From positions 1 to 64,000 of the forward strand of contig NZ_SORF01000010.1 of assembly GCF_004366795.1 (NCBI RefSeq): a stretch of DNA of 64,000 nucleotides. The letters run 5' to 3'. The stretch comes from Alicyclobacillus sacchari (lineage in GTDB: Bacteria; Bacillota; Bacilli; Alicyclobacillales; Alicyclobacillaceae). The notes under the pieces were generated by a model that was not told the DNA's origin, searched no databases, and saw only the letters and a program-made list of their open reading frames with translations. Within the stretch, counting starts at the first letter, position 1; each line of letters starts with the position of its first letter. Shown piece by piece: positions 1 to 18,397 of this stretch. The position numbers were made by a program, and so were the translations under genes.

Positions 1-18
1 GCCTGACAAGGCCTGCGG

Positions 19-960
19 TTGACCCGGCAGACCCTGGCGAACTGGGTGGTGTTGGGGGCGACGCGGTGGCTTGATCTCATATACCACCTGTTGCACGAGG
101 AACTCCTCCAGCGCCGGTACCTCCATGCGGACGAGACGACGTTGCAAGTGCTGCATGAGCCGGGGCGACCTGCCAAGGCGACATCGTACATGTGGCTGTA
201 CCGAAGCGGTCAGGATGGGCCGCCGATTGTGCTGTTCGACTATCAGGAGACCCGCTCGAAGGAGCACCCGAAGCGCTTTCTCGAAGGATTCAAGGGTTAC
301 CTGCACGTGGACGGGTACAGCGGTTACAACGAGATTCCGGATGTGAAGCTGGTTGGGTGCTGGGCACACACCAGACGCAAGTTTCATGAGGCGCACACCG
401 CGCTGCCGGCAGAGGAGCGAAAGAAACCGACCGCTGTCAGGATAGGATTGGAATACTGCAATCGGTTGTTTAAGATTGAACGCGCCCTGAAGGACGCGAC
501 GCCAGAAGAACGCCACGCTGGGCGGCAGAGGTTAAGCCGGCCGGTGCTGGACGCGTTTTTGGCATGGCTTGAGGAACAGAGCGAACAGGTACTGCCCAAG
601 AGCGCCTTTTGGCAGGCGGTTTCGTATTGCCTGAACCAGTGGTCCAAACTCACTACGTTCCTGGAGGACGGGCATCTGGAGCTGGACAACAATCGGAGCG
701 AGCGCTCCATCAAGCGGTTTGTGATTGGCCGGAAGAACTTCCTGTTCGCAAACACACCACGAGGCGCGAGGGCCAGCGCCATCGCGTACAGCTTGGTGGA
801 GACAGCCAAGGAGAACGGACTGGATCCATACTTGTACCTGGAATACCTGTTCGAACGGCTGCCCAACATCCAGACTGACGACCGGACGGCGATGGCTGAC
901 TTGCTGCCGTGGTCCAACCACTTGCCGGACGGTATCCGCAGACGGCCGAAAAGACCATAG
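19..960 (+). CDS. IS66-family transposase (TnpC), C-terminal part
   Basis: This is the catalytic part of an IS66-type DDE transposase, which would cut and join the ends of its insertion sequence. The reading frame shows the family blocks [10 protein letters not shown] (first Asp), [11 protein letters not shown] (second Asp) and [21 protein letters not shown] (Glu region) in order. At 313 residues it is short for IS66 TnpC, which is usually around 500. The family-like sequence [13 protein letters not shown] continues upstream of the TTG at 19, but an in-frame TGA lies at positions 4-6. Either the gene carries a premature stop and is dead, or the start is internal and the rest lies outside the window. 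It is followed by an intrinsic terminator. The family is clear; whether the protein is functional is unknown. Confidence 0.85.
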
Positions 961-972
961 AATGCACAGTTG

Positions 973-1000
973 CCCCGCCGGGGAACCGGCGGGGTTTATT
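973..1000 (+). terminator. intrinsic terminator after the IS66 transposase
   Basis: A 9-bp GC-only stem (CCCCGCCGG / CCGGCGGGG, loop of four) is followed by TTTATT. It lies 13 bases after the transposase stop codon. Confidence 0.7.
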
Positions 1001-1188
1001 GTCATGTACGACTTTGACGCAGCGACGGCGGGAATGCAAGATGGGCGGGATTTGACGCTCACCGAAAAGATAAAAACGATTGTCGATTCGACGGGGCGAT
1101 ATGACTATTTGCGGAGGCTAAACGAATCGAGCCACGAAGGCTAAACACAAGCAATGGCACCTGCGTTTTCGAATCGTGCCAATGGGGT

Positions 1189-2410
1189 GTGTCAAGCGTT
1201 CTGTGTAAACTCCATTTTGAAGAGATTACTTTCGTTCCTGTAGCGAGTACCAGGATGTCGTACCTATGTGAGGATGTCAAGGTACGTTTCCCAGCTTTGA
1301 CAGCCGATGTTAGGCTGCCATCCTGGCCGGACGTGGCATGCCACACACCGTGGGCATGCCACCTAACGTCGTCACGGAAGGTAAGGCGTCACGCGATCTC
1401 CGAAGTAGATGGCCAATTGCCCCAGAATGGTGCCCCAGTTGGCCACCCGCATCGTCCATTTTCTCGTCACCTCCATCGTCGCCAGGTACAGCATCTTCAG
1501 CAAAGCTTCGTCGTTTGGAAACATGCTCTTCCCTTTCGTCGCTTTTCGCAGCTGCCGGTGGTAGCCTTCGATGATGTTCGTTGTATACATGATTCGCCGC
1601 ATTTCCACAGGGTACCGATAGAACGTCGCGAGTTCCGTCCAGTTGTCTCGCCACGATTTCACACACAGGGGATAGCGCGCTCCCCATCCCCGTTCAAACT
1701 GGTCAAGCTCCATCAAGGCCGCCTCTTCCGTGGGTGCCTGATAGATGGGCTTGAGTGCTGCCGCGACCGCCTTGAAATCCTTATAGGACACATACCGCAG
1801 CGAATTTCGAATTTGGTGAACGATGCATTTTTGGACATCGGATTGCGGGAAACAGGCGGCGATGGCTTCGCTGAATCCCTTCAGGTTGTCAGTCGAAAAG
1901 ACGAGCACATCCTGCACGCCGCGCGCCTTCAGGTCATTCAACACGCCTAGCCAGAACTTCGAGGACTCACTCTGCCCTATCCAGATGCCCAGCACATCTT
2001 TCTGACCCTCGATGTCGATGCCAATGACCATGTACGCCGCCTTGCTTACCAAGCGGCCTTCTTCGCGCACCTTGTAGTGAATGGCGTCGAGGAAGCGCGA
2101 TATCGGTATCGCCGAGTCCGGACTGCACCGTCCGCTTGGCGCCGTGGCCATTTCGGGCGTTATCCGTGTCTTTGTGCTTCGCGTCGTATTTGGCATACCC
2201 CAGGTGCGTGTCCAATTCGGCTTCGAGCATCTCTTGGATGGTGCTCGCGAAAAGATCCTTGAGCATGCTTTGGACGTCGTGAATATCCTTCAACTTGCCA
2301 TCTCGAATGAGTTGACGGATTTGCTCCTTGGATATAAGTTCCATGTCGATTCACTCCCCTTGTAGACTCCCACTCCTGGGCTCGGGGACTTTACACAGTT
2401 CATTTTACAC
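1189..2410 (-). mobile_element. IS256-family insertion sequence, internally deleted
   Basis: A minus-strand Mutator/IS256-type transposase relic is bounded by imperfect 25-bp inverted repeats at 1189-1213 and 2386-2410. These match at 19 of 25 positions and share the core CTGTGTAAA. No 8- or 9-bp target duplication is visible in the flanking bases, so the copy is old or was rearranged. It sits directly upstream of the methyltransferase-helicase-nuclease module. Confidence 0.75.
1372..2344 (-). pseudogene. IS256-family transposase with internal deletion and frameshift
   Basis: The N-terminal part (MELISKEQIRQLIRDGKLK to KRTVQSGLGDTDIALPR) reads in one frame. The C-terminal part (FLDAIHYKVREEGRLVSKAAY to AIYFGDRVTPYLP) reads in another, and they meet near 2110. 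Intact members have roughly 95 residues between these blocks, including the first catalytic Asp region, and these are missing here. The C-terminal half keeps the HQIRNSLRYVSYKD and TTNIIEGYHRQLRK family blocks. The gene cannot make an active transposase. The size of the missing part is estimated from memory of the family. Confidence 0.85.
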
Positions 2411-2516
2411 TCTCCTTCAGAGCATGTGGTAAGAGCGACGCAACTCTTCTCCACGGCGTCTGTTTACGTGGTCACGTCCAAGCAGCCATCTGTTTGACGA
2501 TGTGCGATAATGGTAC

Positions 2517-2536
2517 TTGACCTGGTGACCAGTCAA
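2517..2536. promoter_or_regulatory. inverted repeat before the methyltransferase gene, possible operator
   Basis: TTGACCTGGT and ACCAGTCAA face each other around a single G. The arms match perfectly apart from one extra C in the left arm. The repeat ends about 30 bases before the likely GTG start at 2565, where a repressor of the defence operon could bind. A role as operator is inferred from position and symmetry only. It could also be part of an RNA hairpin in the leader. Confidence 0.4.
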
Positions 2537-2564
2537 TTGCTAGTGATAAATGAGGGCGTTATTT

Positions 2565-5324
2565 GTGAATCCAGTAGAAATCGAAGCAGCAGTATCCGAA
2601 TTGGCGGCCCAGCCTTTTGACAAGGAAGAGTTTCCTTTTGCCTTCTTGCGGGCGTTCGGGAACAAGGAAACGACAATTAGGCGCCTGCGTTCGGGCGAAA
2701 CGAATAAGTCTGATATAGGCGGCGTATTACAGACGAACAATATCCATATTGCAGTAGCTCCAACTGGCGAAGTCACCAAGACTCTTGCGGCATTGAAAGA
2801 AAGCCCGGCAACGTCTAGAGCGAAGGCACGCTACATTCTCGCGACTGACGGTGAAGTCTTTGAGGCCGAGGATTTAGACTCCAGGGAAACCGTAGCCTGT
2901 GCCTATCAGGATTTCCCGGATCACTTTGGTTTCTTTCTCCCGCTTGCCGGAATTACGACTGTCAAGCAGGTGAGAGAAAGCTCTTTTGACATCCGGGCAA
3001 CGGGCGGGTTGAACAAGCTTTATATCGAACTGTTGAAAGACAACCCGGAATGGGGAGCGGCCGAACGACGCCACGAGATGAACCACTTCATGGCGCGTTT
3101 AATCTTCTGCTTCTTTGCCGAGGACACCGGCATTTTCAGTGATACGCGCTTATTCACCAATACTGTCGAACAAATGAGCATGCGTAATGCCTCGAACACG
3201 CACGAAGTCATTGGTGAGATCTTCCATGCCATGAACACGAAGATTGAAGACCGCGCCAAGGCCAAGTTGCCGCGCTGGGCCGATGTATTCCCTTACGTGA
3301 ACGGCGGACTCTTCTCGGGAAGTATAGATGTACCAAGGTTCAGTAAGATCTCGCGCTCGTACCTGCTACATATCGGTAATCTTGACTGGACTAAGATAAA
3401 TCCCGACATCTTCGGCTCCATGATCCAGGCGGTAGCTGACGACGAGGAACGTGGTGCACTCGGCATGCACTACACGAGTGTGCCAAATATCCTGAAGGTA
3501 CTCAATCCGTTGTTCTTAGATGATTTGCGAGCTCAGCTTGAAGCAGCGGGTGACAACCCTCGTAAGCTGCTCAACTTGCGCAAGCGTCTGTCGAGAATCC
3601 GGGTTTTTGATCCCGCCTGCGGCTCAGGCAACTTTCTGGTCATCGCTTACAAAGAAATGCGCGCGATTGAGGCCGAGATAAACCGACGACGAGGCGAAGC
3701 AGGACGTAAGAGCGAGATCCCATTGACTAATTTTTGCGGCATCGAGATACGAGACTTTTCGGCTGAAATTGCTCGCCTGGCCCTCGTCATTGCAGAGTTC
3801 CAGTGTGACGTTCTTTATCGTGGGAAGACGTTGGCTATATCGGAATTTTTGCCGCTCTCATCGGAAAACTGGATCACCTGCGGCAACGCCCTGCGATTGG
3901 ACTGGCTTAGTATCTGCCCACCGACCGGAACAGGTGTGAAGCTCCACGCTGACGACCTATTCCACACGCCGCTTGAACAGACGCAGCTTGACTTCGAAAA
4001 TGAGGGCGGTGAAACGTACATCTGCGGGAATCCACCGTTCACTGGTACGCGTAAGCAAACTGATGAACAAAAGAGCGATCTTCAAGCCGTCTTCTCGCGG
4101 TACACAACAAAGTGGAAAAACGTCGATTACGTGGGCGCGTGGCTAGTCAAAGCCGCTGAGTACAATACGCATTGTCGTGCGTCATTTGCGTTTGTTGCTA
4201 CGAACAGTCTCTGCCAAGGACAGCAGGTCCCAATCACGTGGGCGGTGCTCCGAGATTTGGGATTCAGAATACGCTTTGCGTACACATCTTTCATTTGGTC
4301 GAACTTGGCAAAAAACCGTGCTGGAGTAACTGTCATAATCGTGGGATTGGATGCTGATGCAGCCGGTAATCGTTACTTGATAGATGGCGAGAACAAGCGT
4401 TTAGTTGAAAATATCAATCCCTATTTGACCGAGCACAAAATAGATATTGTGCCGTCGTCTCGTCGCCCGTTGTTTACAGGCATCTCGATGGACTACGGCG
4501 TATATTATTCCAAATCGGCGGGATTGATTTTGCACCCAGACGAAGCGCGCGAACTCGTACAGAGGGGATTTCCTGCCGGATTGTTGAAGCGTTTTCTCGG
4601 ATCGACAGAATTCATTAATGGCGTGGAACGGTATTGCCTTTGGCTCGATGATGAAAGCCTATTAACTGCCAATCAATTCCCTGAAGTTCGACGCCGAATT
4701 GAGGCCGTTCGCAGAGATCGTCTCGAAACAACAGACGTGGCGGTCAATAAGTTGGCTACCAGGCCGCATCAGTTTCGTGAACGTAAAGGCGAGGAACAGA
4801 AAAAGATCCTCATACCAATCGTATCGTCTGAGAATCGGGAATATCTCCCTGTCGGTTTAGTAGATGGGAGCGTTATCCCCACAAATAAGACATTCTTCAT
4901 TGGTGATGCACCGCTGTGGTGTTTGGCAATCTTGTCGTCGAAACTCCATCTAACATGGATCGCGGCCATCTGCGGCCGCTTGCGTTCTGACTATTCCTAC
5001 TCGAACACGCTCGGCTGGAATACCTTTCCCGTTCCGACTTTAACCGAGAAGAACAAGGCGGACCTCAGTCGCTGCGCAGAGGACATCCTGCTGGCCCGTG
5101 AGGCGCATTTCCCGGCGACGATCGCCGATCTCTATGATCGTGAGAACATGCCTGCTGATCTACGCGAGGCGCATGAGCGTAACGATGAAGTATTAGAGCG
5201 TATCTATATCGGACGTCGTTTTCGTAACGATACCGAGCGGCTGGAAAAGCTGTTCGAGCTTTACACCAAAATGACGGCTACAACGAAATCGACTAAAAAA
5301 GGTAAGAGGAGGGCAGACGCATGA
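2565..5324 (+). CDS. MmeI-type N6-adenine DNA methyltransferase without nuclease domain
   Basis: This is a large class I SAM-dependent DNA methyltransferase of the MmeI/YeeA type, expected to methylate adenine in a specific DNA site. Motif I is FDPACGSGN (about residues 348-356) and the catalytic motif IV is NPPF (489-492). A helical spacer region comes before and a target-recognition and C-terminal region after. The N-terminus (VEIEAAVSELAAQPFDKEEFP, AFGNKETTIRRLRSG) does not show the D...ExK nuclease domain that starts MmeI itself. I prefer GTG 2565 over ATG 2550 because GAGGG lies 8 bases before the GTG and nothing SD-like precedes the ATG. The stop overlaps the helicase start (ATGA). The trio is probably one restriction-modification-like defence operon, with the nuclease supplied by the third gene. 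Confidence 0.85.
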   Translation: MNPVEIEAAVSELAAQPFDKEEFPFAFLRAFGNKETTIRRLRSGETNKSDIGGVLQTNNIHIAVAPTGEVTKTLAALKESPATSRAKARYILATDGEVFEAEDLDSRETVACAYQDFPDHFGFFLPLAGITTVKQVRESSFDIRATGGLNKLYIELLKDNPEWGAAERRHEMNHFMARLIFCFFAEDTGIFSDTRLFTNTVEQMSMRNASNTHEVIGEIFHAMNTKIEDRAKAKLPRWADVFPYVNGGLFSGSIDVPRFSKISRSYLLHIGNLDWTKINPDIFGSMIQAVADDEERGALGMHYTSVPNILKVLNPLFLDDLRAQLEAAGDNPRKLLNLRKRLSRIRVFDPACGSGNFLVIAYKEMRAIEAEINRRRGEAGRKSEIPLTNFCGIEIRDFSAEIARLALVIAEFQCDVLYRGKTLAISEFLPLSSENWITCGNALRLDWLSICPPTGTGVKLHADDLFHTPLEQTQLDFENEGGETYICGNPPFTGTRKQTDEQKSDLQAVFSRYTTKWKNVDYVGAWLVKAAEYNTHCRASFAFVATNSLCQGQQVPITWAVLRDLGFRIRFAYTSFIWSNLAKNRAGVTVIIVGLDADAAGNRYLIDGENKRLVENINPYLTEHKIDIVPSSRRPLFTGISMDYGVYYSKSAGLILHPDEARELVQRGFPAGLLKRFLGSTEFINGVERYCLWLDDESLLTANQFPEVRRRIEAVRRDRLETTDVAVNKLATRPHQFRERKGEEQKKILIPIVSSENREYLPVGLVDGSVIPTNKTFFIGDAPLWCLAILSSKLHLTWIAAICGRLRSDYSYSNTLGWNTFPVPTLTEKNKADLSRCAEDILLAREAHFPATIADLYDRENMPADLREAHERNDEVLERIYIGRRFRNDTERLEKLFELYTKMTATTKSTKKGKRRADA

Positions 5325-7411
5325 CCAGCAGAAATAAATCAATCCCTTCCATTTCGGTGTCCTACGCCCGAAACGGCAGTTCGGCGAAAGTGAATTCGCT
5401 TGGCATGCGACCGATGCAAGAACGCGCGTATGAACGGCGCGGAGAGCAGTATCTGCTGATTAAATCGCCGCCGGCATCCGGCAAGAGTCGGGCGCTGATG
5501 TTCATCGCCCTTGACAAGCTCCACAACCAGGGGCTTAAGCAGGCAATCATAGTAGTGCCGGAAAAATCCATCGGAGCGAGCTTCAACGACGAGCCGCTGC
5601 GTCAATTTGGCTTTTGGGCCGACTGGCACGTTGAGCCTAAATGGAACCTCTGCAATGCGCCAGGCGCCGACAATGGTCGCAAAGTTAAATCGGTGAAGGC
5701 GTTCCTTGAAAGTGATGATAAGGTGTTGGTCTGTACCCACGCTACATTCCGATTTGCTGTTGATCAATTCGGCGTAGAGGCGTTTGACAATCGTCTTATT
5801 GCAGTGGACGAGTTTCATCACGTCTCTGCCAACCCCGATAACAAACTCGGGCTGCATCTTGGGCAGTTCATTGCGCAAGATCGGGTGCATATCGTGGCGA
5901 TGACCGGCTCGTACTTCCGCGGCGATGCGGAAGCCGTGCTGGCCCCTCAGGATGAGGCAAAGTTCGATACCGTCACCTATACCTATTACGAGCAACTCAG
6001 TGGGTACGAGTATCTGAAACAGCTCGACATTGGTTATTACTTCTACTCCGGTTCATACACCGATGACATCCTGAAAGTGCTTGACCCGTCCGAGAAGACC
6101 ATCATTCACATTCCAAACGTTAATTCGCGCGAGAGCACGAAACAGAAGATCAAGGAGGTCGAGCTCATTATCGAAGCCCTCGGGGAATGGCTAGGGACCG
6201 ATCCGATGACCGGCTTCCAGTTCGTCAAGACGCCAGGTGGCCGAATTCTCCGGATTGCCGATCTCGTGGACGATGATCCGACGAAACGCGACCGGGTAGT
6301 GGCAGCACTGAAAGATCCAGCACAAAAGAACAACCGTGACCATGTAGACATCATCATCGCTCTTGGCATGGCGAAGGAAGGCTTCGACTGGATTTGGTGT
6401 GAGCACGCACTTACCGTTGGATATCGGTCGAGTCTAACCGAAATTGTACAAATCATTGGCCGCACGACTCGTGACGCGCCGGGCAAAACCCGCGCCCGAT
6501 TCACGAACCTCATTGCAGAACTAGATGCGTCCCAAGAAGCCGTTACCGAGGCGGTGAACGACACTTTGAAGGCTATCGCCGCCAGTTTGCTGATGGAGCA
6601 GGTCCTTACACCGCGCTTCGAGTTCAAGCCGAAGAATCCAGACAACGGTCCTGAAGAAGGGTTCGACTATGGCGATGGCGGCTATGATCGAGAAAAATGC
6701 AATGTAGGCTTCAATCAGGAAACGGGTCAGTTCCAAATTGAAATCAAGGGCCTCTTGGCACCCAAAAGCGAGGAAGCGTCGCGCATCTGTCGGGAGGACC
6801 TTAACGAAGTGATTGCGACCTTCGTTCAGGACAAGACCACCATCGAGCGCGGCTTGTTTGACGAAGAACTGGTGCCGGAGGAGCTAACCCAGGTTCGAAT
6901 GGGCACAATCATCAGGGAGAAGTATCCGAATCTCAACGAAGAGGATGTTGAAGCAGTACGCCAGCATGCCATCGCTGCACTCAACCTGACACAACAGGCC
7001 AAGAAAACTTTACCTGGCAACGATAGAGGCGGCAGCGAACCGGTGGCCAACACTGCCTTCATCGATGGGGTTCGTAAGTTCGTGATGGATGTGCGGGAAC
7101 TGGACATCGATCTCATTGACCGCATCAACCCATTTAGTGAGGCATATGCCATCCTTGCCAGGACGATGAGCGAGGACAGCCTGAAACAGGTTGCGGCTGT
7201 GATTGCGGCTAAACGTGTAAGTATTCCCTACGAGGAGGCAAGAGCGCTGGCTGTACGGGCTCTACAATTCAAGAAGGAACGCGGGCGACTACCGGACATC
7301 AATGCGCAAGATCCATGGGAGAAGCGCATGGCCGAGGGTGTCGCAGCCTTACAGCGCTATCGTTCGCAGAAGAAGGCGGCGGAAGTCAGTGGAGGAGATA
7401 TGAATGCCTGA
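5321..7411 (+). CDS. SF2 DEAD/DEAH-box helicase of the restriction-like module
   Basis: This 696-residue superfamily 2 helicase or translocase has all expected motifs: SPPASGKS (motif I, Lys about 55), DEFHH (motif II, 163-167), MTGSY (motif III), GMAKEGFDW (motif V) and QIIGRTTRDAPGK (motif VI). A long C-terminal region of about 250 residues has no motif I recognise and may contact DNA or a partner. The start overlaps the methyltransferase stop by four bases, and the end overlaps the next gene by eight, so the three proteins are probably made together in fixed amounts. By analogy with HsdR/Res subunits it may move along DNA and bring the GIY-YIG nuclease to foreign DNA. That role is inference. 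Confidence 0.88.
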   Translation: MTSRNKSIPSISVSYARNGSSAKVNSLGMRPMQERAYERRGEQYLLIKSPPASGKSRALMFIALDKLHNQGLKQAIIVVPEKSIGASFNDEPLRQFGFWADWHVEPKWNLCNAPGADNGRKVKSVKAFLESDDKVLVCTHATFRFAVDQFGVEAFDNRLIAVDEFHHVSANPDNKLGLHLGQFIAQDRVHIVAMTGSYFRGDAEAVLAPQDEAKFDTVTYTYYEQLSGYEYLKQLDIGYYFYSGSYTDDILKVLDPSEKTIIHIPNVNSRESTKQKIKEVELIIEALGEWLGTDPMTGFQFVKTPGGRILRIADLVDDDPTKRDRVVAALKDPAQKNNRDHVDIIIALGMAKEGFDWIWCEHALTVGYRSSLTEIVQIIGRTTRDAPGKTRARFTNLIAELDASQEAVTEAVNDTLKAIAASLLMEQVLTPRFEFKPKNPDNGPEEGFDYGDGGYDREKCNVGFNQETGQFQIEIKGLLAPKSEEASRICREDLNEVIATFVQDKTTIERGLFDEELVPEELTQVRMGTIIREKYPNLNEEDVEAVRQHAIAALNLTQQAKKTLPGNDRGGSEPVANTAFIDGVRKFVMDVRELDIDLIDRINPFSEAYAILARTMSEDSLKQVAAVIAAKRVSIPYEEARALAVRALQFKKERGRLPDINAQDPWEKRMAEGVAALQRYRSQKKAAEVSGGDMNA

Positions 7412-8585
7412 GCTATCTGATGATGAATTACTTGAGGCACTTGGTGTGGAAGATGAGATTGCGAAAACAAGTACTCACTCGCCACGTGAAGAGCGCATTA
7501 TCGCGGGGTTCGAGGAAATCCAGCGATTTGTTGAGCGGTATGGCCATGTTCCGCAACATGGAGAAAACAATGATATCTTCGAGCGGCTTTACGCTGTGCG
7601 ACTCGACCGTCTGCGTGCGTTGGAGGAATGTCGGACCCTGCTTGCGCCGCTCGATTACCAAGGTCTTCTGAGTGCACCCGAGATTGCGCCAGTCGACCAA
7701 GTGGAATCGATGGATGACGATGAACTGCTCGCCCAACTTGGCGCAACTGGCTCTTCGGGCATTACAGAACTTCGTCATGTCCGCCCCCGATCCGAAGTGC
7801 GGGCGTCCGAGGAAATCGCCAAGCGCGAGAAGTGCGAGGACTTCGATGGCTTCCGACCCATGTTTGAGCAGGTTGAGCGCGAAATCAAATCTGGCCTGCG
7901 ACAAACGCGTCCATTTGGTAAGGATGCAAGCGTCAACATCGGTAACTTCTTTATTTTGCGTGGCCAACTTGTTTACGTGGCTGAGAAGGGGGGTGAATTT
8001 CCAGCTCCGAATGGCGATACTGATGCTCGGCTTAGAGTCATATACTCTAACGGTACCGAAAGTAACATCCTGCTCCGGTCTTTACAGCGTGCACTATACA
8101 AAGACGAGGCCGGACGCCGCGTGACCGAGCCGGTTCGCGGTCCGTTGTTTAGCGAAACCTGGGACGAAGGCGATATCGAAAGTGGCACTATCTATGTCCT
8201 GCGCAGCCTGTCCAATCACCCGTTCGTGGCGCAGCACCGCGAACTTATTCATAAGATTGGCGTTACGGGCGGCAAGGTTGAAACCCGCATTGCCAATGCT
8301 TCGCACGATGCTACCTATCTGCTGGCAGATGTCGAAGTCGTCGCGACCTACAAACTTGCAGGCATCAACCGCACGAAGCTGGAGGGTATATTGCACCGCA
8401 TCTTTGCATCGGCTCAGCTTGATCTTACTATCCATGACCGCTTCGGCAACCCGGTACGACCGAAGGAGTGGTTTCTCGTACCGCTACGCGTCATTGACGA
8501 AGCGGTGAGCCGAATTCGGGATGGCTCGATTACTAATGTGGTCTATGATCCTAAGACGGCCAGTTTGGTAGGTGGTCACCAGTAA
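7404..8585 (+). CDS. GIY-YIG nuclease (T5orf172/MUG113-like) of the restriction-like module
   Basis: The C-terminal third carries a GIY-YIG-type nuclease core. GTIYVLRS (from about residue 261) is the GIY strand, HKIGVT (283-288) the YIG strand, followed by an Arg in ETRIA and KLEGILH with the metal-binding Glu about 327. The arrangement resembles the T5orf172/MUG113 branch. The N-terminal part is acidic and contains a motif twice, SDDELLEALGV near residue 5 and DDDELLAQLGA near residue 103, which may be docking peptides. The start overlaps the helicase by eight bases, with GGAGGAGAT as ribosome binding site. It is the only nuclease in the operon, so it is the likely effector that cuts unmodified DNA. 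The partnership is inferred from operon structure. Confidence 0.8.
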   Translation: MPELSDDELLEALGVEDEIAKTSTHSPREERIIAGFEEIQRFVERYGHVPQHGENNDIFERLYAVRLDRLRALEECRTLLAPLDYQGLLSAPEIAPVDQVESMDDDELLAQLGATGSSGITELRHVRPRSEVRASEEIAKREKCEDFDGFRPMFEQVEREIKSGLRQTRPFGKDASVNIGNFFILRGQLVYVAEKGGEFPAPNGDTDARLRVIYSNGTESNILLRSLQRALYKDEAGRRVTEPVRGPLFSETWDEGDIESGTIYVLRSLSNHPFVAQHRELIHKIGVTGGKVETRIANASHDATYLLADVEVVATYKLAGINRTKLEGILHRIFASAQLDLTIHDRFGNPVRPKEWFLVPLRVIDEAVSRIRDGSITNVVYDPKTASLVGGHQ

Positions 8586-8607
8586 AGGGTGGGATGTTCA
8601 CTAGAGA

Positions 8608-8650
8608 CACAGATTCCGCGCCTCGTTCTTCAGCGTCTGTGATTTTCTAG
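8608..8650 (+). terminator. weak possible terminator after the defence operon
   Basis: CACAGA (8608-8613) can pair with TCTGTG (8636-8641), which is followed by ATTTTCT. The stem is only 6 bp with a 22-base loop, so this is weak support. Confidence 0.25.
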
Positions 8651-8808
8651 GTCGGGTTGATCGCGAAGTTGCAGAGTAATCATGTTGCGCCTGGACGATT
8701 TCCGGTTGATCGAACCCGTATCACAATTCCTGGTGGAAGCGTAAGCGTCAAACCCCGCACACCTTGCGTTCGGTTCGTCTTGGTGGCAAGGTGTGAAGAG
8801 TTGGACGC

Positions 8809-9558
8809 TCACGTCGCTCCGGTCAGTGCAGACCCAATCGCACTGCGAAGCCCTTCATGGGCATCGCTGATCGCCAACTGCACGCCACGCAGCCCACGTG
8901 CGACCAGACTGCGGATAAATGTGAGCCAGAACGAGCCATCTTCGCTGGTGCCGATGTCAAACCCCAATACTTCGCGCTCACCGGTGTCCCGCACCCCAAT
9001 CGCAATGACAAACGCCATACTTTGGACCCGTCCGCCCTCTCGCACCTTCGGGAACGTAGCATCAAACCACAGGTACGGATATGTCCCCTCCAATGGGCGG
9101 TTCTTGAAGTCCTGGACTACGTTGTCGAGCTCTTTACAGATTCGAGAGACTTCGCTCTTGCTGAGCCCCTGAATGCCCATAGACTCGACCAGTTCATCCA
9201 CCTTACGGGTGCTCACGCCATGGACATACGCTTCTTGAACTACGGACAGAAGAGCCTTCTCAGCCTTGCGTCGAGGCTCCAGGATACTGGGGAAGTAGCT
9301 CCCCTTACGCAGCTTCGGAATCTGCAATTCCATCGTTCCAACACGAGTATCCCATTCCCGGCTTCGGTGCCCATTGCGGCTGTTGCTACGCTTCTCACTA
9401 CGCTCATACCGATCAGCACCAATCAGAGAGCTCACCTCCGCCTCGATCACCGCCTGGGTGAGGACTCTCAACCCCTCCTTCAGGAAATCCACATCCCCAT
9501 CATCCAATCCGATCTTGCGAATTAACTCCAAAAGTGCGATCTTGTCTGTAGAAGCCAT
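8809..9558 (-). pseudogene. truncated IS256-family transposase (second type)
   Basis: The first 249 residues of a Mutator/IS256-type transposase are intact, from MASTDKIALLELIRKIG through NGHRSREWDTRVG, the WFDATFPKVREGG block with the first catalytic Asp, and SDAHEGLRSAI with the second. The frame then ends at a TGA where relatives continue TGATWQRC. The last third with the catalytic Glu is absent, and nothing transposase-like follows down to 8590. It differs clearly from the IS256 copy at 1.2-2.4 kb. Its outer end is near 9600-9650, where an inverted-repeat-like GTGTAAATTACAC occurs. It closes the right side of the restriction-like module. Confidence 0.85.
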
Positions 9559-9775
9559 CGATGTGCCTCCTCTACTATTTGCTCGTCACTTTTAGTAGAT
9601 GGCACTCGATGGCTTTTTCGTCAAGATCCAGCCGTGTAATTTACACCACTACTTGAGACTCTAACTACTGGACTCAACTCCTATTTCAGCCTAACACCAA
9701 ACTGAGTGGATTTAGATAGGCTGGTTGCAGCTGAAAAAATGTAAGGAGTCTAACTGTTTGGACTTTTTGTGCCGA

Positions 9776-11065
9776 TTACATACCCCTAACTACGTTGTAT
9801 AGTAACAGCACGGAAAGAATCGTGATCCCCGCAAGGATGAACCAGCCCCAGATATTATACGTTATTCCATTCGCATACTTGCCCATGATCCGTCGATCCC
9901 TTACGAGAAGCAGTAGAAAAAGTAGTGCAGGAATAATGAGTATCGCCGACACAAACTGTGCGATAACTGCCATTAGATTCAGCGGTAGGGAAGGAATTAG
10001 AACGGTGAGTGCCGCGATCGTCACGCTCCCAAAATACATCCCATAAAATTTCGGTGCTTTGTGAACCTTATCATTCAGGCTGTTTGCCCAACCAAGAGTT
10101 GTGGCAAACGTCCAAGAAGTAGACATGGAAATTGTAAAAGCGGCGAGAAATCCAGCATTGAACAGCCCGAAAGCGAATAAATCCGCACCTACAATTCCGA
10201 TATGTTGTGCGTAGGCATGAATGACTTGCAACGGGCCTGATAAAGAGTCAACCACGTTACTCGATGGTGTGTATAGCGCTGCGCCGCAGATAATCAAAAT
10301 TGCCGCGATCAAAACTTGGCTCACGCTTCCTGTTACGGTATCCAGGCGGCCAAAACGCAGGTCCTTTGCGGTCATCCCTTTGTCTAAAACTGCACCACCT
10401 TGAAAGAAGATCATCCACGGTGCAAAGGCGTTACCAATAGTTGCTATGATGTACCAAAGGAATAGTGTGTGTGTTTCGGAGGGAATTGACCAGTGACTAA
10501 AGGCATTCCCGATTCGTGCGATGCTTGGGTGAGTCATAATGGACACAACTATAAAAACAACATTGAACGTACCGAGCAGGAGCGCGAGACGTTCTTTTGT
10601 CCAGTAGCTTCCAAATATAGCGATCGAAATCACGATAACAAGGCTTAGAAGATCACTTGCTACAAATGGAATACCGAGAATGGAAAGTCCTGCGCTCATG
10701 CCGATGAACTCAGTAATCAAAGAGAGGATGTTGTTTAGAAAGAGCGTACCAAGCGAAAATTTTGCCCAGAACGTGCCGAAACGTTCCGAAATCATAGTTG
10801 TAAAACTGCGTTGAGTCACTACACAGAGTCGCATCACCATTTCTTGCACGGTGTATGTGAGTGGGGCGAGAAGCAACACGAATGGGATAAAAAATCCGAT
10901 GCTGAATTGGGCACCCGTAATTACATAGCTTAGAACGCCTCCTGCGTCGTTGTCACCGATCATGGCCAGCAATCCGGGGCCAAGGAATATCCAAAACACA
11001 TTTATCAATTGAAAACGTGATTTCTGTCTCTTTGTTGGGGCGTCAATCTTCTCTTGAACATCCAT
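9776..11065 (-). CDS. NRAMP-family divalent metal transporter, NRMT (Mg)-like
   Basis: This is an integral membrane protein of the NRAMP fold with about 11 hydrophobic helices, expected to import a divalent cation. In helix 1 the usual DPGN is replaced by DAGG (residues 40-43, after GDN), so the metal-binding Asp is kept and the Asn is lost. In helix 6 the usual MPH is replaced by APW in GNAFAPWMIFFQGG. Loss of the soft Met ligand is typical of NRAMP-related magnesium transporters rather than Mn/Fe importers. GGAG lies 11 bases before the ATG. It is transcribed divergently from the XRE-DUF1232 gene, which may regulate it. The family is sure; magnesium as substrate is inferred from these residues. 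Confidence 0.8.
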   Translation of the reverse strand: MDVQEKIDAPTKRQKSRFQLINVFWIFLGPGLLAMIGDNDAGGVLSYVITGAQFSIGFFIPFVLLLAPLTYTVQEMVMRLCVVTQRSFTTMISERFGTFWAKFSLGTLFLNNILSLITEFIGMSAGLSILGIPFVASDLLSLVIVISIAIFGSYWTKERLALLLGTFNVVFIVVSIMTHPSIARIGNAFSHWSIPSETHTLFLWYIIATIGNAFAPWMIFFQGGAVLDKGMTAKDLRFGRLDTVTGSVSQVLIAAILIICGAALYTPSSNVVDSLSGPLQVIHAYAQHIGIVGADLFAFGLFNAGFLAAFTISMSTSWTFATTLGWANSLNDKVHKAPKFYGMYFGSVTIAALTVLIPSLPLNLMAVIAQFVSAILIIPALLFLLLLVRDRRIMGKYANGITYNIWGWFILAGITILSVLLLYNVVRGM

Positions 11066-11087
11066 CCTGATGACAACTCCTCAGCAG

Positions 11088-11115
11088 TTGACGGCATATC
11101 ATATACAAAGACAAT
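11088..11115 (+). promoter_or_regulatory. putative promoter of the XRE-DUF1232 gene
   Basis: TTGACG (11088-11093) and GACAAT (11110-11115) are 16 bases apart. Transcription would start near 11122, downstream of the ATG at 11119. This argues for translation from 11182. Confidence 0.45.
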
Positions 11116-11181
11116 ACGATGTGTGTTGATGAAGTGTTGAGAAATGACCAACACCAAAACATTACAGGGGTGTCTAATGAG

Positions 11182-11805
11182 ATGGAGCAGAAAGGGCCGA
11201 ACCAGCTTGAGGATACAGTCAAGTCTCTGTTAAAACAGCGGTCCATGTCACTACGCACACTTAGCAAACGAACGGACATAGACGTTGCGTCGATTTCAAG
11301 GATGCTTTCGGGCAAACAAAAAGCCAACCCAGACTACTTACAGAGGATCGCAGTTGAATTGGATGTACCTGCCGATGAATTATTTCGTGCTGCGGGATTT
11401 GACGTAGGCAGAACGAAGTCACAGGACTCTTTAGATTTTGTTCGTGAGTTGCTTAATGGACAAGAGTTTTCAAAACAGGCCATCGAAATGGAGTTGGCCA
11501 AGTACGAGGACTATGCGCGAACCGATGAAGGTGCGAACCTGATTGTCGAGAAATTCCTCGAGAAACGCCAGCAAGTTTCGGGGACTGGTGCATTCATTGA
11601 GCAGCTAGACAAGATGTATAACGGATTTTTAGATAGTAACTCTGATGAAGAGCGATGTATTTTGGGGAGTGGCCTGCTGTATTTTGTTCTGTCTACAGAT
11701 ATGATCCCTGACTATATATTCCCGATTGGTTATATTGACGATGCTTTGGCGATCCAAATAACGTGGAATCGTTTTTTGCTGATCCATCGAACGACAAATG
11801 AATAA
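11182..11805 (+). CDS. XRE-type regulator fused to a DUF1232 domain
   Basis: The N-terminus is a Cro/C1-type helix-turn-helix (LEDTVKSLLKQRSMSLRTLSKRTDIDVASISRMLSGKQ, about residues 9-45), followed by NPDYLQRIAVELDVPADEL as in many XRE repressors. The C-terminus (GSGLLYFVLSTDMIPDYIFPIGYIDDALAI) matches DUF1232, a short membrane-associated domain known from YkvA-like proteins. I use ATG 11182, with AGGGG 11 bases upstream. The open frame extends to 11119, but that ATG has no ribosome binding site and overlaps the predicted promoter. The gene is divergent from the NRAMP-type transporter and could repress or sense on its behalf. The target is inferred from position only. Confidence 0.8.
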   Translation: MEQKGPNQLEDTVKSLLKQRSMSLRTLSKRTDIDVASISRMLSGKQKANPDYLQRIAVELDVPADELFRAAGFDVGRTKSQDSLDFVRELLNGQEFSKQAIEMELAKYEDYARTDEGANLIVEKFLEKRQQVSGTGAFIEQLDKMYNGFLDSNSDEERCILGSGLLYFVLSTDMIPDYIFPIGYIDDALAIQITWNRFLLIHRTTNE

Positions 11806-11899
11806 TTGCATCCGGTTAGTCTGGCTAACAGAAAGGTTTATATTTACAAAATTATTTGGCATAACCTACAGTATATAAGCGTCTTACAGGCGATTTGAC

Positions 11900-12135
11900 A
11901 TTCACTCACTGTGCCAATTCTCCATGACATATCAATTGTCTGGACAGGACGGGGTTCAATACGCCCGCACTCCGCTTGTCGAAAGTTGTAGGTGCGAACA
12001 AACAACATAGACAAGATGAAGAGGTGCGGGTCTTGGAGAGACTCTCAAAACTATGATGCGACGCGAGATCCGCGGGCACAAAGACTGGGAATTCACCGAC
12101 AGCCTGTTTCCTGATATCTGGGTCAGATGCAGTAG
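11900..12135. other. decayed IS21-like sequence, no intact gene
   Basis: The interval between the XRE gene and the IstA fragment holds no open reading frame I can support. It reads like the mutated N-terminal part of an IS21 istA gene with stops. Confidence 0.3.
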
Positions 12136-12402
12136 GTGCGTCTTCTGGGCCGAGAGATGGATTACACAGCATCCCGCCGTGCCCGTCCTAGACTAATTGA
12201 TTCTTATCTGGAGTACATACAACGGCGGTTGGAGGCTTATCCGGAGCTGACGGCAAAGAGATTGTTCAGGGAAATCCGGGACATGGGATTCAGTGGGTCA
12301 AAACGGATGGTCCTCGATACGTTGCTCCGCTTAAGGCAAGGGTTCCGGACCGTGTCCATAAGCCATACGAGACGACCAAAAATGCCCACATTCATCGTCT
12401 GA
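12136..12402 (+). pseudogene. IS21-family transposase (IstA) fragment
   Basis: The stretch RPRLIDSYLEYIQRRLEAYPELTAKRLFREIRDMGFSGS matches the region that follows the helix-turn-helix in IS21 IstA proteins, where a fixed spacing of YPELSAKRLFREIR is usual. The family protein is around 500 residues and here only about 70 resemble it. The frame is broken on both sides and no istB follows. It is a remnant. Confidence 0.65.
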
Positions 12403-12717
12403 GGGTGTGTATACTCAAATTCCATCAAGTGCCCGTCGGTTCACCAGCTTGTGACGATTATTTTGGGTAAGGCACCTTGACGAAACTGGGTAATCGAGCA
12501 CGATTAAAAACAAGCTGTCTGCGGTGAACACCGCGGGTGAAGGCTTTGCTCCTTCGTTCCTTATCATCGACCGGCGAATTGCCTCTTGATGAAGCGACGA
12601 CGGGATATATTTGATTTGCCGAGGCAAAACCGTCAATGGCGGTGCGTCGAAACTCGGCACATTCTACACGTAGGGGCAATTTACACACAAATTCGGACTT
12701 GACCCATTTTTGCACCC
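12403..12717. other. intergenic, no recognised gene
   Basis: About 300 bases between the IS21 relic and the mer promoter. Short open frames on both strands have no ribosome binding site and resemble nothing I know. Probably more insertion-sequence debris. Confidence 0.35.
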
Positions 12718-12749
12718 TTGCCCCCATCATATCAAGATATTATAATATG
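12718..12749 (+). promoter_or_regulatory. mer operon promoter with overlapping operator-like dyad
   Basis: TTGCCC (12718-12723) and a perfect TATAAT (12741-12746) are 17 bases apart. An imperfect dyad CATAT...ATATG (12729-12749) covers the -10 element, a usual position for an ArsR/SmtB-type operator. The likely regulator is the ArsR-family protein encoded by the second gene of the operon. Confidence 0.6.
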
Positions 12750-12769
12750 TGTAAAGGAGATGAGCCATT

Positions 12770-13054
12770 GTGCAAAACAATGAACAGGAGCGGCACACAG
12801 GTACTGGCATGTGGGGCTTATTGGGACTCGTTGCTCTTCCCGTGCTCTGTTGTGGGCTGCAAACTTTGATTGGAGTTCTCGGTGTCACGACAGCGGGTGC
12901 GGTTTTGGCGTCAGACCGCTATTGGATTGTGGGCGGCCTTGTCATCTTGATCGGTATCGTGATGTTTATTGTATCACGCCGTCGCAAAAAGTCCGGGACA
13001 GATTCATGTTGTGCGATATCTCCCAGCGACCTGTCGTCCAAGGAGAAAGCCTGA
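12770..13054 (+). CDS. merF: MerF-like small mercuric ion transporter
   Basis: A 94-residue membrane protein with two hydrophobic helices. The first contains a vicinal cysteine pair (LPVLCCGLQ) and a second pair (DSCCAIS) follows helix 2 after a basic SRRRKK segment. Two helices with one CC pair inside the membrane and one on the cytoplasmic side is the MerF layout, in which Hg(II) passes from cysteine pair to cysteine pair into the cell. AAAGGAGA stands before the GTG start. It is the first gene of an operon that ends in merA, which supports mercury as cargo. Sequence identity to classical MerF is low, so the symbol is tentative. Confidence 0.65.
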   Translation: MQNNEQERHTGTGMWGLLGLVALPVLCCGLQTLIGVLGVTTAGAVLASDRYWIVGGLVILIGIVMFIVSRRRKKSGTDSCCAISPSDLSSKEKA

Positions 13055-13068
13055 AGGAGCTGAATGAC

Positions 13069-13410
13069 GTGCGAGAACTCAATACAGCATCTCTTGACAG
13101 CGTGACGCAGACGGAGATTTATGCAAAGTTTTTTCACGGATTGTCGAACCCAACACGTTTTAAAATCGTGGAGGCCTTGCTCGATCAAGAGATGAACGTC
13201 AGTCAACTCGTAGATGCAATTGGAGCTTCTCAAAGCCAGGTGTCAAATCAACTCGCTTGTCTGAAGTGGTGTGGTTACGTGACATCGAGGCAGGAGGGCA
13301 AATACATTCTGTATCGCATTTCGGATGAACGTGTTCGTACGATCCTTCAACTGGCCAAGGAAATTGTCGCCGATAACGCAGAACATATCCGGTGTTGCAC
13401 CAGGATGTAA
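13069..13410 (+). CDS. ArsR/SmtB-family metal-sensing repressor, CmtR-like
   Basis: A 113-residue winged-helix repressor with the ArsR-family core FFHGLSNPTRFKIVEALL and the recognition region ASQSQVSNQLACLKWCGYV. The recognition helix carries two cysteines (C64 and C68, CLKWC), and a third pair (C109-C110) stands at the C-terminus. CmtR-type cadmium/lead sensors use the same CxxxC plus a C-terminal Cys. In this operon it probably senses Hg(II) and lets go of the promoter dyad at 12729-12749. GTG 13069 is chosen because AAGGAG lies nine bases upstream. The longer open frame overlaps the merF-like gene and lacks such a site. The metal specificity is inferred from context. Confidence 0.8.
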   Translation: MRELNTASLDSVTQTEIYAKFFHGLSNPTRFKIVEALLDQEMNVSQLVDAIGASQSQVSNQLACLKWCGYVTSRQEGKYILYRISDERVRTILQLAKEIVADNAEHIRCCTRM

Positions 13411-13437
13411 ACACGTGTGAGAATTGGAGGGCTAAGC

Positions 13438-13977
13438 ATGAACAGGATTTGGCTTGGCGGTGCCCTGGTGGTCGTGCTTGGCGCTGTTGTTTTGGGATTC
13501 ACCCGGTTTGAACATGCGACAGCGGCACCAACGGCAACTGGACCGCAGTCGGCGACTGCACAGCGGACAAGCCAACAAATCTCTGCGACTGCTACCGGGT
13601 TGAGCGAGCTTCGTTTTACGGATGTCTCCGGAAAAAAGATTTCCGTCAATCCTAATGAGAAGACAGTGCTTCATTTCATGACCTCGTCTTGTTCAGACTG
13701 TTTGCCAACAGAGGCGACATTGGCCAAGTTTCAAAACATGCCAGGCGTTCAACTGATTTCGGTTGACGTGGAGCCTCAAGCCGACAATGCCGGCACGATT
13801 GCGCAGTTTGCGCAGGTGGCGGGCAGCCACTGGCCTTATGTATTGGAGACGAATTCGTCTCTTCTCCAAAAGTTCCACGTGACGGAACTGGATACGGTGG
13901 TCGTGCTTTATCACAACAAGGTTATCTACGAAGGGGTTGTGCCATCAGAAGCCCAACTCAAGAAGGTGCTTGCATGA
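13438..13977 (+). CDS. membrane-anchored thioredoxin-like protein (TlpA/ResA type)
   Basis: An N-terminal signal anchor (RIWLGGALVVVLGAVVLGF) is followed by a redoxin fold with the redox pair C85-S-D-C88 in HFMTSSCSDCLP. It should face the outside of the membrane and exchange disulfides. ATG 13438 is preceded by GGAGGG. Its stop overlaps the CcdA-like gene by four bases (ATGA), and CcdA-type proteins pass electrons to exactly this kind of partner. In the mer operon the pair may keep the cysteines of the mercury transporter, or an extracellular mercury-binding thiol, reduced. That purpose is inference. Confidence 0.75.
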   Translation: MNRIWLGGALVVVLGAVVLGFTRFEHATAAPTATGPQSATAQRTSQQISATATGLSELRFTDVSGKKISVNPNEKTVLHFMTSSCSDCLPTEATLAKFQNMPGVQLISVDVEPQADNAGTIAQFAQVAGSHWPYVLETNSSLLQKFHVTELDTVVVLYHNKVIYEGVVPSEAQLKKVLA

Positions 13978-14645
13978 ACGCTGAACTTGCAGTCGTTCTG
14001 GGTGCGGGCATGATGGCGGCTTTCAACCCATGTGGTGTCGCCATGTTGCCCTCCTATATTGTACACCTGATTGCCGGACGTGAGCGGCGTGTCTGGGACG
14101 GGGTGTGGGCAGGTCTACTCATGACTGCCGGTTTTCTGATTGTATTCCTGCTGGCTGGCGTCGTCGCGGTGACGTTTGCGACAGTATTCGGCAAAGCAGT
14201 GGCGTGGATTGCAGAGGCCGTCGGCGTAGTGTTCGTTGTTCTGGGGATACTGATGTTGTTTGGTAAACGTGGGGTTACATTCCATATCGGGGGTGACTGG
14301 AACTTACAACGAGGCAGCCAGTGGTCCGTGTTTCTATACGGCATCGCCTATGCACTCGGTTCACTTGGCTGTACGCTACCGCTCTTCTCTGTTCTCGTGT
14401 TGTCGTCTTTTCACAGTCAGGGATTTGCAAGTGGGATGTCCGACTTTGTGCTCTATGCGCTTGGCATGGGCTTGGTGGTGACCGTCATTTCCCTGGCGTC
14501 CACGATCTCGCAGCAACTGGTCGGAAAGTGGGTTCGGTCTGGGGCTCGATGGATGGGGCGGTTCAGTGCGCTCATTACACTCGCGACCGGTGTGTATCTC
14601 GTCGTCTACTGGCTGCCGTACGTGCGTCTATATGCGGGGTTTTGA
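13974..14645 (+). CDS. CcdA-family thiol-disulfide electron transporter
   Basis: A 223-residue protein with six predicted membrane helices and the two conserved CcdA cysteine motifs, [11 protein letters not shown] near residue 17 and GCTLPLFSV near residue 137. CcdA moves electrons from cytoplasmic thioredoxin to thiol proteins outside the membrane. It is translationally coupled to the thioredoxin-like gene before it and followed by merA after 13 bases. This places it in the mercury operon rather than in cytochrome c maturation. Confidence 0.8.
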
Positions 14646-14658
14646 CGGAGGTGCTTTT

Positions 14659-16326
14659 GTGACGAATTCAAGCGGCAAGAAACAAATCCGGCTTGTCGTG
14701 AACGGTATGACTTGTCATGACTGCGAACGGCACGTATCCCATGCACTTCAACTTGTGGGTGCTAAAAATATATCTGTAAGTTTTCGGGAGAATGAAGTCA
14801 TCTTTGAATTGGCTGATCTGAATCGTTTGGATGATGCACAACGGGCGATTGCCGATTTGGGCTATCAACCAGGGGATGCTACCATCCTCAGTGGTTGCCA
14901 GCCGGGAAAGGTCATCGAATTGGACGGGAACTACGATTTTGATTTCCTCATCATCGGATCCGGCGGCGCAGCGTTTTCTGCTGCAATTGAAGCATCGTCC
15001 TATGGTGCGAAAATCGCCATGGTGGAGCGAGGCACAGTCGGTGGGACTTGTGTGAACATTGGTTGCGTCCCGTCAAAGAACATGCTTCGGGCGGGAGAAA
15101 TCAATCATCTGGCAGCGAGCAATCCGTTTCTCGGGTTAAACACAAGCGCTGGTCCGGTGGACATGAAGACCCTCATTGACCGAAAGAATGAACTGGTCGG
15201 CGAGCTACGCCAACACAAGTACGTGGATTTGATTGACGAATACGGCTTTGAACTGATTCAAGGGGAAGCGTATTTCGTGAATGAATCGACTGTCGAAGTG
15301 AATGCTCGGAAAATCACGGCCCGAGGCTTCCTGATTGCGACCGGCGCTTCCCCGTTCGTGCCGGACATCCCTGGCCTCGCCGATGTCGATTACCTAGACA
15401 GCACAACCGCTCTTCAGCTTGGGGAAGTCCCGAAGCGCCTTATCGTGATTGGCGCCGGATTTATCGGATTGGAAATGGGGAGCCTGTTTCGGAACCTGGG
15501 CTCGGAGGTCACCCTGTTGCAACGTGGATCCCGCATTTTGCCCAAGGCCGAACCGGAAGTCGCTGCTGCTGTGAAACAAGCCTTGACCGAGAAGGGGATT
15601 CGAGTCATCACGGATGCCGCCGTCAAACATGTCGAGCAGGACGGGAATCTTAAACGGGTGTTCATCACACTAAACGGCAAGGAACAGGTCGTAGAGGCCG
15701 AAGCATTGCTTGTTGCCACAGGCCGGAAACCGAACACGGAGTCGTTGAACCTGGGCGCGGCGGGCGTGAAGGTCGGTCATCGTGGCGAAGTCCTGGTGAA
15801 TGAATACCTGCGCACTAGCAATCACCGGATCTATGCCGCAGGGGACGTGACGATGGGCCCGCAGTTTGTGTACGTGGCCGCTCACGAGGGAGCCATTGCG
15901 GCGCAGAATGCGGTTGTCGGCGCCGACAAGCAAGTGGACCTAAACGCAGTGCCTGGCGTGACGTTCACGAATCCTGCGATTGCAACGGTTGGCTTGACGG
16001 AAGAACAGGCGAGATCCGCCGGGTATGACGTATTGACTTCCGTGCTGCCGCTTGACACCGTACCACGGGCTTTGGTGAATCGGGAGACGACCGGGGTGTT
16101 CAAGCTCGTGGCGGATGCCAAGACACGCAGAATCATCGGTGTCCACGTGGTGGCGGAGAATGCCGGGGATGTTATCTACTCGGGCGTGATCGCCGTGAAG
16201 TTTGGGTTGACCATTGAGGATGTGAGGTCGACGCTTGCCCCATACCTGACCATGGCAGAGGGATTGAAACTGGCGGCCCTGACGTTTGATAAGGATGTGG
16301 CGAAGTTGTCGTGTTGTGCGGGCTAG
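14659..16326 (+). CDS. merA: mercuric reductase MerA
   Basis: This flavoprotein reduces Hg(II) to volatile Hg(0) with NADPH in the cytoplasm. The 555-residue protein has an N-terminal HMA metal-binding domain (GMTCHDC, C19/C22), an FAD-binding fold ([15 protein letters not shown]), the redox pair [13 protein letters not shown] (C131/C136), an NAD(P)H-binding [11 protein letters not shown], and the C-terminal vicinal pair CC (552-553) that hands mercury to the active site. All cysteines expected of MerA are present. GTG 14659 follows ACGGAGGTG. The open frame extends into the ccdA-like gene but has no ribosome binding site there. No merB is seen nearby, so resistance to organomercurials is not indicated. 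Confidence 0.95.
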
Positions 16327-17020: not shown

Positions 17021-17073
17021 ACCATGCAGAACCAGAGTCTTCCCCAGAGGGGGCATTTGGAGGCGATCCCATC

Positions 17074-18396: not shown

Positions 18397-18397
18397 G

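Follow-up and report, generated by a model that had tools for sequence, protein, structure and literature searches.

What do three overlapping genes of Alicyclobacillus sacchari, encoding an MmeI-type methyltransferase, an SF2 helicase and a GIY-YIG protein, do together? They form open reading frames (ORFs) 2550-5324, 5321-7411 and 7404-8585, all on the plus strand of the stretch analysed here (the window: 64,000 nucleotides, contig NZ_SORF01000010.1, positions 1 to 64,000). The trio is real and intact. A first-pass annotation, made from the sequence alone, had noted overlaps of 4 and 8 bases between the genes, complete methyltransferase, helicase and GIY-YIG motifs and no further nuclease, all of which were confirmed, and had placed the start of gene 1 at 2565. 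Indeed, the GTG codon at 2565 is preferred to the in-frame ATG at 2550, because the nearest homologues begin at the residue that it encodes. The source genome was found to contain one helicase of the trio type and a single MmeI-type gene.

The same annotation suggested an under-described anti-phage system without an accepted name. The trio is probably a defence module, but it is not undescribed. Its protein types and gene order are those of dnmA(yeeA)-yeeB-yeeC of Bacillus subtilis, and since earlier papers describe such trios, the finding is already known in outline. According to the accessible portions of these papers, DnmA of B. subtilis methylates GACGAG (PMC9973331, PMC7261158); the order methyltransferase-helicase-T5orf172 is conserved (PMC9973331); MmeI homologues without an endonuclease motif adjoin yeeB and yeeC, and a Type I-like restriction-modification (R-M) system has been suggested (Morgan et al. 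2009, as cited in PMC7261158); YeeB and YeeC homologues are among defence-island genes (Makarova et al. 2011, as cited in PMC9973331 and PMC7261158); and Vibrio crassostreae became more sensitive to some phages when its dnmA and yeeB homologues were deleted (as cited in PMC9973331). The B. subtilis control genome matched PF20473. The B. subtilis cluster, too, has an MmeI-like methyltransferase without the nuclease motif, then a helicase, then a T5orf172/GIY-YIG protein. It differs in its shortened YeeB and YeeC, which miss C-terminal stretches present in V. crassostreae (PMC9973331, accessible text), whereas the window copy belongs to a Pseudomonadota-rich set. In the literature as far as it was accessible, neither a named R-M subtype nor a demonstrated mechanism was found for the trio.

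On balance, we favour the reading that the trio is an ATP-dependent three-gene R-M system, a dispersed analogue of Type ISP and Type III systems. It probably destroys unmarked foreign DNA, which it would do by cleavage. The chances appear even that it represents a distinct class of ATP-dependent restriction, in which an MmeI protein without its own nuclease is combined with a separate motor and a GIY-YIG cutter joined by a duplicated hairpin, the recognition domains are swapped between closely related copies, and a slot between the marking and cutting genes is reserved for the insertion of varied defence and toxin-antitoxin genes. The new observations are the partition of the nuclease, the swapping of recognition domains, the cargo slot and the hairpin pair, and they support an active split restriction system. 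The latter three were not found described for the trio in the accessible literature; PMC9973331 mentions an uncharacterised neighbour family, but its accessible text has no cargo slot between methyltransferase and helicase.

Gene order, cargo slot and distribution

Homologues of the three proteins were collected, as the first-pass annotation had proposed. One sample (the class sample) consists of 289 genomes taken evenly from across the class to which a Bradyrhizobium relative belongs. Here the helicase occurs at 16 places in 15 genomes, the nuclease in 16 genomes and the methyltransferase in 28. Both partners accompany all 16 helicases. Methyltransferase sequence lies at most 2.5 kb upstream, being only partial on the contig in G586, G445 and G662 and containing two stops in G434. 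Nuclease sequence lies directly downstream, but in G445 (L166) it is a stub, which covers some 69 profile positions of the N-terminal part and runs into other, phage-like sequence. The sole YeeC without a helicase (G465, L159) is a broken nuclease beside a methyltransferase fragment, and the other 12 methyltransferase-matching genomes, in which the helicase is absent, contain more distant MmeI-type or partial genes.

A helicase scan of a collection with one genome per bacterial or archaeal species yielded at least 555 related stretches. The best 80, a choice biased toward close relatives (helicases 77-87% identical to the window copy, Pseudomonadota-rich), have the methyltransferase in 77 and the nuclease in 79 cases, the contig ending at most 1.1 kb away in the misses. 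All three genes are present in 12 of 12 plasmid loci. A scan of IMG/VR produced 45 helicase loci on putatively viral contigs, 35 of them with the methyltransferase and 40 with the nuclease. The nuclease is absent from L129, L132 and L138 although there is room for it; L138 has no methyltransferase either, with 1489 bases of room, and nine further methyltransferase misses have less than 1 kb of sequence upstream. The recurrence of the three genes together and in the same order is far beyond chance. A phage origin was also considered: three of 50,697 phage records match the helicase, and in none does the match cover more than 80% of it.

A quick tree was built from 68 helicases (the window copy, 63 genome loci and four plasmid copies). 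In it, the window copy groups with four Bacillota copies, from Tumebacillus, Cohnella, Fictibacillus and Paenibacillus (SH-aLRT 99), and this group sits among mostly Pseudomonadota copies. The window copy is 43-45% identical to three plasmid-borne Bacilli copies (L010, L011, L013), and homologues from other Bacilli align over the full length of the trio proteins. In a sample of its own phylum the helicase was found in one of 398 genomes, with few candidates scored per genome, so that distant copies may be missed.

The junctions of the trio differ. That between methyltransferase and helicase holds more than 250 bp in 57 of 124 loci (in the class sample 9 of 16, counted from coordinates), and the methyltransferase can stand up to 3.7 kb from the helicase. 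Between helicase and nuclease, none of 131 loci has an interruption longer than 100 bp. In 52 of 57 slots the longest ORF, chosen without weighting, has the same strand as the operon; a choice of slot ORFs in which the other strand was weighted 0.7, and which is therefore biased, gave 65 of 72. We scanned 66 of 85 slot ORFs: those of at least 80 amino acids that share the strand of the operon, and a single one from the opposite strand. Among the matches listed, which cover 25 of 35 Pfam families, there are DUF1016/YhcG (7), RhuM (6), AlbA_2 with HATPase_c_4 (5), BrnT (3) and PIN-type domains (up to 3); AbiEii, DUF6088, Fic, FRG, DUF3800, DUF559 and an HI1420-type antidote, among others, occur once each. 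Genes of the RhuM, DUF1016, Fic and AlbA_2 families may also occur within type I hsd loci, which literature searches did not confirm. In a distant subset, hand-listed from identities, 2 of 22 loci have a filled slot, versus 55 of the 102 others, and the slot is empty in the window copy as well as in its four relatives from the Bacillota. The slot offers a place to seek further defence genes.

Two slots may serve as examples. In Thiopseudomonas (L082:4413-7944) the slot contains an AbiEii-type gene, a DUF6088-type gene that is apparently its AbiEi partner, and a Fic protein, the families being assigned by eye. On a Synechococcus plasmid (L004:2779-3750) an annotated RelE/ParE toxin and its antidote lie between the methyltransferase and the helicase.

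One alternative is that the trio is a module of competition between plasmids or other mobile elements, directed mainly at rival incoming plasmids rather than phages, with its loss punished by addiction. This would agree with toxin-antitoxin genes inside or beside several trio loci and with 264 plasmid records that match the helicase, 118 of them predicted to be conjugative, many records being closely related. On the other hand, contigs of 2-3 Mb carry several copies (L017, L048, L053, L066), two of them titled chromosome. We consider this explanation rather unlikely; the mechanism would still be restriction, and thus it differs in target, not in kind. Many Acinetobacter plasmids match the helicase only partially (query positions 11-182 or 159-689), which suggests interrupted copies.

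Nuclease motif and recognition domain of the methyltransferase

Gene 1 aligns with MmeI along nearly its whole length (profile E 1.8e-265). It matches the Pfam domains MmeI_N, MmeI_hel, MmeI_Mtase (5.6e-110), MmeI_TRD and MmeI_C and contains motif I DPACGSGNFL and NPPF. Thus it shares with MmeI (type IIL/IIG) the methyltransferase, spacer, target recognition and C-terminal domains, and methylation of a single strand is expected. It differs in having partner genes and in the absence of D70, E80 and K82, the catalytic residues of MmeI (PMC4833311, accessible text), so that it has the methyltransferase, recognition and C-terminal domains of a type IIL enzyme without the PD-(D/E)XK nuclease.

The same holds across the trios that were aligned. 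In a multiple alignment of 105 methyltransferases (the window copy, 11 from plasmids, 64 from genome contigs and 29 from viral contigs) no protein has E in the E80 column or K in the K82 column; a nearby D is aligned in the D70 column in 89, and the motif D-X(7-12)-[E/D]XK is found near the site in none. This motif is kept in 14 of 14 full MmeI homologues examined from genomes without the helicase, six from the window's own phylum and eight from the class of the Bradyrhizobium relative. The eight come from seven of the 12 helicase-less genomes of the class sample, five with partial or weak matches having been left out. For the six, the absence of the helicase is based on the own-phylum genome search and on the lack of a match in the flanks. 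In one homologue (L157) the frame starts far upstream, beyond the scan of the first 130 residues, and the motif was read directly from the sequence. In the cases tested, no methyltransferase that accompanies YeeB has the MmeI nuclease motif, and all those without YeeB have retained it.

This partition bears on another possibility, namely that YeeB and YeeC together are an independent nuclease, either modification-dependent (Type IV-like) or directed at DNA damage, the methyltransferase serving some other role. The unbroken YeeB-YeeC junction in 131 loci and the distance of up to 3.7 kb to the methyltransferase would suit it, and the middle domain of YeeC weakly resembles small barrels including the readers UHRF1 TTD and SAWADEE, none significantly. 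However, methyltransferase sequence precedes all 16 helicases of the class sample, and its nuclease motif is lost with YeeB present and kept with YeeB absent in the cases tested. A separate nuclease is very unlikely in our opinion.

PADLOC, also proposed by the first-pass annotation, labels one gene of this widespread trio and does so as an enzyme type whose nuclease residues are absent: gene 1 is matched as type IIG (model PDLC03598, 1.1e-274), a label that implies an endonuclease. Nothing convincing was returned for genes 2 and 3. Cross-matches of gene 1 to DrmMI (9e-30), mad2 (1.6e-8) and PglX (8.5e-7) and of the helicase to PbeA (2.8e-5) were observed. No signature proteins of BREX, DISARM, Dnd/Pbe or MADS were found in the trio or beside the window copy (PADLOC; NCBIfam models below cut-off).

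In a BREX-like mechanism, methylation would mark self, and YeeB and YeeC would stop phages from replicating, with no cut made either at the sites or between them. Asymmetric m6A on a single strand is a feature of BREX as well (PMC7261183, accessible text), and the methyltransferase has a weak similarity to BrxX (9ewz, E 0.00096), with the NCBIfam BREX models far below cut-off. But the helicase is accompanied by a GIY-YIG domain with invariant catalytic residues, and BREX genes are annotated in none of 12 plasmid loci, where several neighbours are unnamed. We regard this mechanism as decidedly unlikely.

The recognition domain is the variable part of the trio. When the window copy is compared with L014-L017, the four copies closest to it, the identity is 87-91% in the helicase core, 81-85% in MmeI_N and 86-92% in the C domain, versus 36-45% in the recognition domain. 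Among 301 pairs with helicase cores 88-99.5% identical, drawn from 100 loci having all three genes in full, the recognition domain is less than 50% identical in 268, and the N-spacer, C domain and YeeC in none. The stretch of low identity spans approximately residues 506-805 of gene 1 (numbered from the ATG at 2550); the mean identity of MmeI_N is 75% among pairs with more than 75% helicase identity. The recognition domain of the window copy is nearest to those of two Pseudomonadota copies, L053 and L083 (66%), which are 91% identical to each other in this domain and 84% in the helicase. Such apparent swapping would fit a restriction system under counter-selection; an orphan regulator would have no obvious need for it.

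Motor, cutter and candidate mechanism

The helicase encoded by gene 2 (DEAD and ResIII above the Pfam cut-off, Helicase_C below it) contains the motifs PPASGKS (Walker A), DEFHH and QIIGRTTRD, the first two being invariant across 47 aligned helicases. Gene 3 matches MUG113 and T5orf172 of the GIY-YIG superfamily; its residues Y264, K284-x-G286, R295 and E327 are invariant across 61 aligned nucleases, the window copy included. A fold search with the YeeB model returned general SF2 proteins, with LlaBIII (Type ISP) at rank 3 and HsdR of EcoR124I at rank 6, the matches being weak (TM-scores at most 0.36).

By profile comparison, the C-terminus of YeeB and the N-terminus of YeeC share a homologous helical hairpin. 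Comparison of YeeB 641-679 with YeeC 33-72 by hhalign gave a probability of 93.4, seven control windows giving at most 1.33. Independently, the nuclease profile matches the helicase C-terminus in L158 (E 3.7e-6), and both regions are helical hairpins in structure models. The pair may dock the cutter to the motor. A sub-cut-off match to Pfam PMBR at YeeB 633-659 overlaps the hairpin, and the annotation 'pseudomurein-binding repeat-containing protein' on plasmids is probably due to it. In the structure model, the middle domain of YeeC (residues 168-223, window 7905-8072) folds into a small beta barrel similar to EF-P/eIF5A domains (5wxk_B, TM 0.60 over 49 columns, E 0.04, not significant); it could be a reader of DNA or of its modification.

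The division into modification, motor and GIY-YIG nuclease lies, as the first-pass annotation held, outside the textbook R-M types. Besides the missing type IIL nuclease, it departs from Type ISP (LlaGI, LlaBIII), which has the same functional set of nuclease, SF2 motor, methyltransferase and recognition domain but combines it in one chain with an Mrr-family nuclease, the trio having three chains and a GIY-YIG nuclease. With Type I (HsdRMS) it shares separate modification and restriction genes, but it has no HsdS, it divides between two chains the motor and nuclease that HsdR unites in one, and its recogniser is of the MmeI type. According to the accessible text of the sources, Type ISP enzymes hold the SF2 motor, methyltransferase, recognition domain and nuclease in a single chain, use inverted asymmetric sites and cut where two motors collide (PMC4666363), and MmeI-type enzymes probably rely on oppositely oriented site pairs, somewhat like Type III (review PMC3874165).

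By these precedents, the MmeI-type protein would recognise a short asymmetric site and methylate adenine on one strand, as DnmA does at GACGAG. At an unmethylated site it would recruit or release YeeB, predicted to move along DNA, with YeeC held to it via the paired hairpins, and the GIY-YIG site of YeeC would cut when two motors converge or stall. The DnmA site has adenines on one strand only, and hence methylation marks one strand and leaves one daughter duplex unmarked after replication. Safe cutting should thus require a pair of oppositely oriented sites, as in Type III and Type ISP, which would explain why the MmeI nuclease was given up for a motor and a separate cutter. If this split Type ISP-like mechanism is true, the motor makes methylation of a single strand safe, and the GIY-YIG cutter joins the nucleases of ATP-dependent restriction.

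Several observations speak against an active system of this kind. In B. subtilis, deletion of dnmA left transformation unchanged (PMC7261158), and deletion of dnmA, yeeB or yeeC left the plating of three phages unchanged (PMC9973331); GACGAG is not under-represented in phages, and the authors term the cluster a relic (PMC9973331; all from the accessible text). No biochemical data on YeeB or YeeC were found in the accessible literature, a Foldseek search of YeeC gave no significant match in the PDB (best E 6.3e-3), and the hairpin windows were picked by eye ahead of the hhalign comparison. Moreover, phage SBSphiJ has 43 GACGAG sites by our count (44 in PMC9973331), with six adjacent convergent pairs, and should therefore have been cut by an active system. 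Its escape may reflect the shortened B. subtilis proteins or protected phage DNA.

The orientation of sites was considered as a reason for the negative phage tests. In phi29, of which bases 1-19000 of 19282 were covered, all three GACGAG sites are on one strand, and Nf lacks the site altogether (PMC9973331, accessible text); thus neither phage tests the inverted-pair rule. This explanation fits phi29 and Nf but fails for SBSphiJ, and it is a partial point only.

The negative results in B. subtilis, together with the effect of DnmA on promoters in this species (PMC9973331, PMC7261158, accessible text), suggest a further explanation, already proposed for B. subtilis: only the methyltransferase works, as an orphan epigenetic regulator, and YeeB and YeeC are inert passengers. 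Decaying trios do exist, with the methyltransferase split into at least two frames in L019, L031 and L032, methyltransferase stops in G434, the stub in G445 and the broken locus in G465. However, the window genes are all full length with complete catalytic motifs, whose residues are invariant in the aligned nucleases and helicases; passengers would hardly keep a fixed order across phyla; and a pure regulator has no obvious use for a hypervariable recognition domain. For the window copy a relic is unlikely, and the three-gene R-M system remains our preferred reading.

Feature coordinates and flanking genes

Table 1. Features of the trio and its immediate flanks, in window coordinates
Feature	Position	Strand	Basis
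dnmA-like gene for an MmeI-family (type IIL) N6-adenine methyltransferase that also recognises the target and has a degenerate nuclease site	2565..5324	+	ORF, Pfam, alignment
MmeI_N domain without D70/E80/K82, still matched by the Pfam model	2568..3041	+	Pfam, alignment
MmeI_Mtase domain, DPACGSGNFL and NPPF motifs	3537..4379	+	Pfam, motifs
Target recognition domain, hypervariable	4443..5042	+	Pfam, identity profile
yeeB-like SF2 helicase/translocase, Walker A, DEFHH and motif VI intact	5321..7411	+	ORF, Pfam, motifs
Helicase C-terminal helical hairpin (residues 641-679), homologous to the nuclease N-terminal hairpin	7241..7357	+	profile comparison, model
yeeC-like gene encoding an N-terminal hairpin, a small beta barrel in the middle (weak fold match) and a C-terminal GIY-YIG/T5orf172 domain	7404..8585	+	
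Nuclease N-terminal helical hairpin (residues 33-72)	7500..7619	+	model, profile comparison
GIY-YIG domain (residues 261-372) with Y264, R295, E327	8184..8519	+	Pfam, alignment
Left flank: IS256/mutator transposase remnant, two frames	1372..2344	-	
Right flank: truncated IS256/mutator transposase, a different member from the left one	8809..9558	-	

A promoter and terminator scan of 2300-8900 gave sites no more numerous than in shuffled sequences. A composite transposon carrying the trio was considered and rejected: the flanking IS256-type proteins are 40% identical over 81 residues, and a long DNA repeat is absent. Since these genes are different members of the family, the trio does not lie on a simple composite transposon. 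An IS66 transposase at 19-960 also flanks the trio, beside both IS256-type remnants.

To the right of the trio, positions 9776-11805 encode an Nramp-type transporter and an HTH_3-DUF1232 protein. They are followed at 12770-16326 by an apparent heavy-metal (possibly mercury) resistance cluster with a DsbD_TM-like protein, a pyridine-nucleotide oxidoreductase of 586 amino acids with an HMA domain, and small ORFs judged by eye to be membrane and regulator-like.

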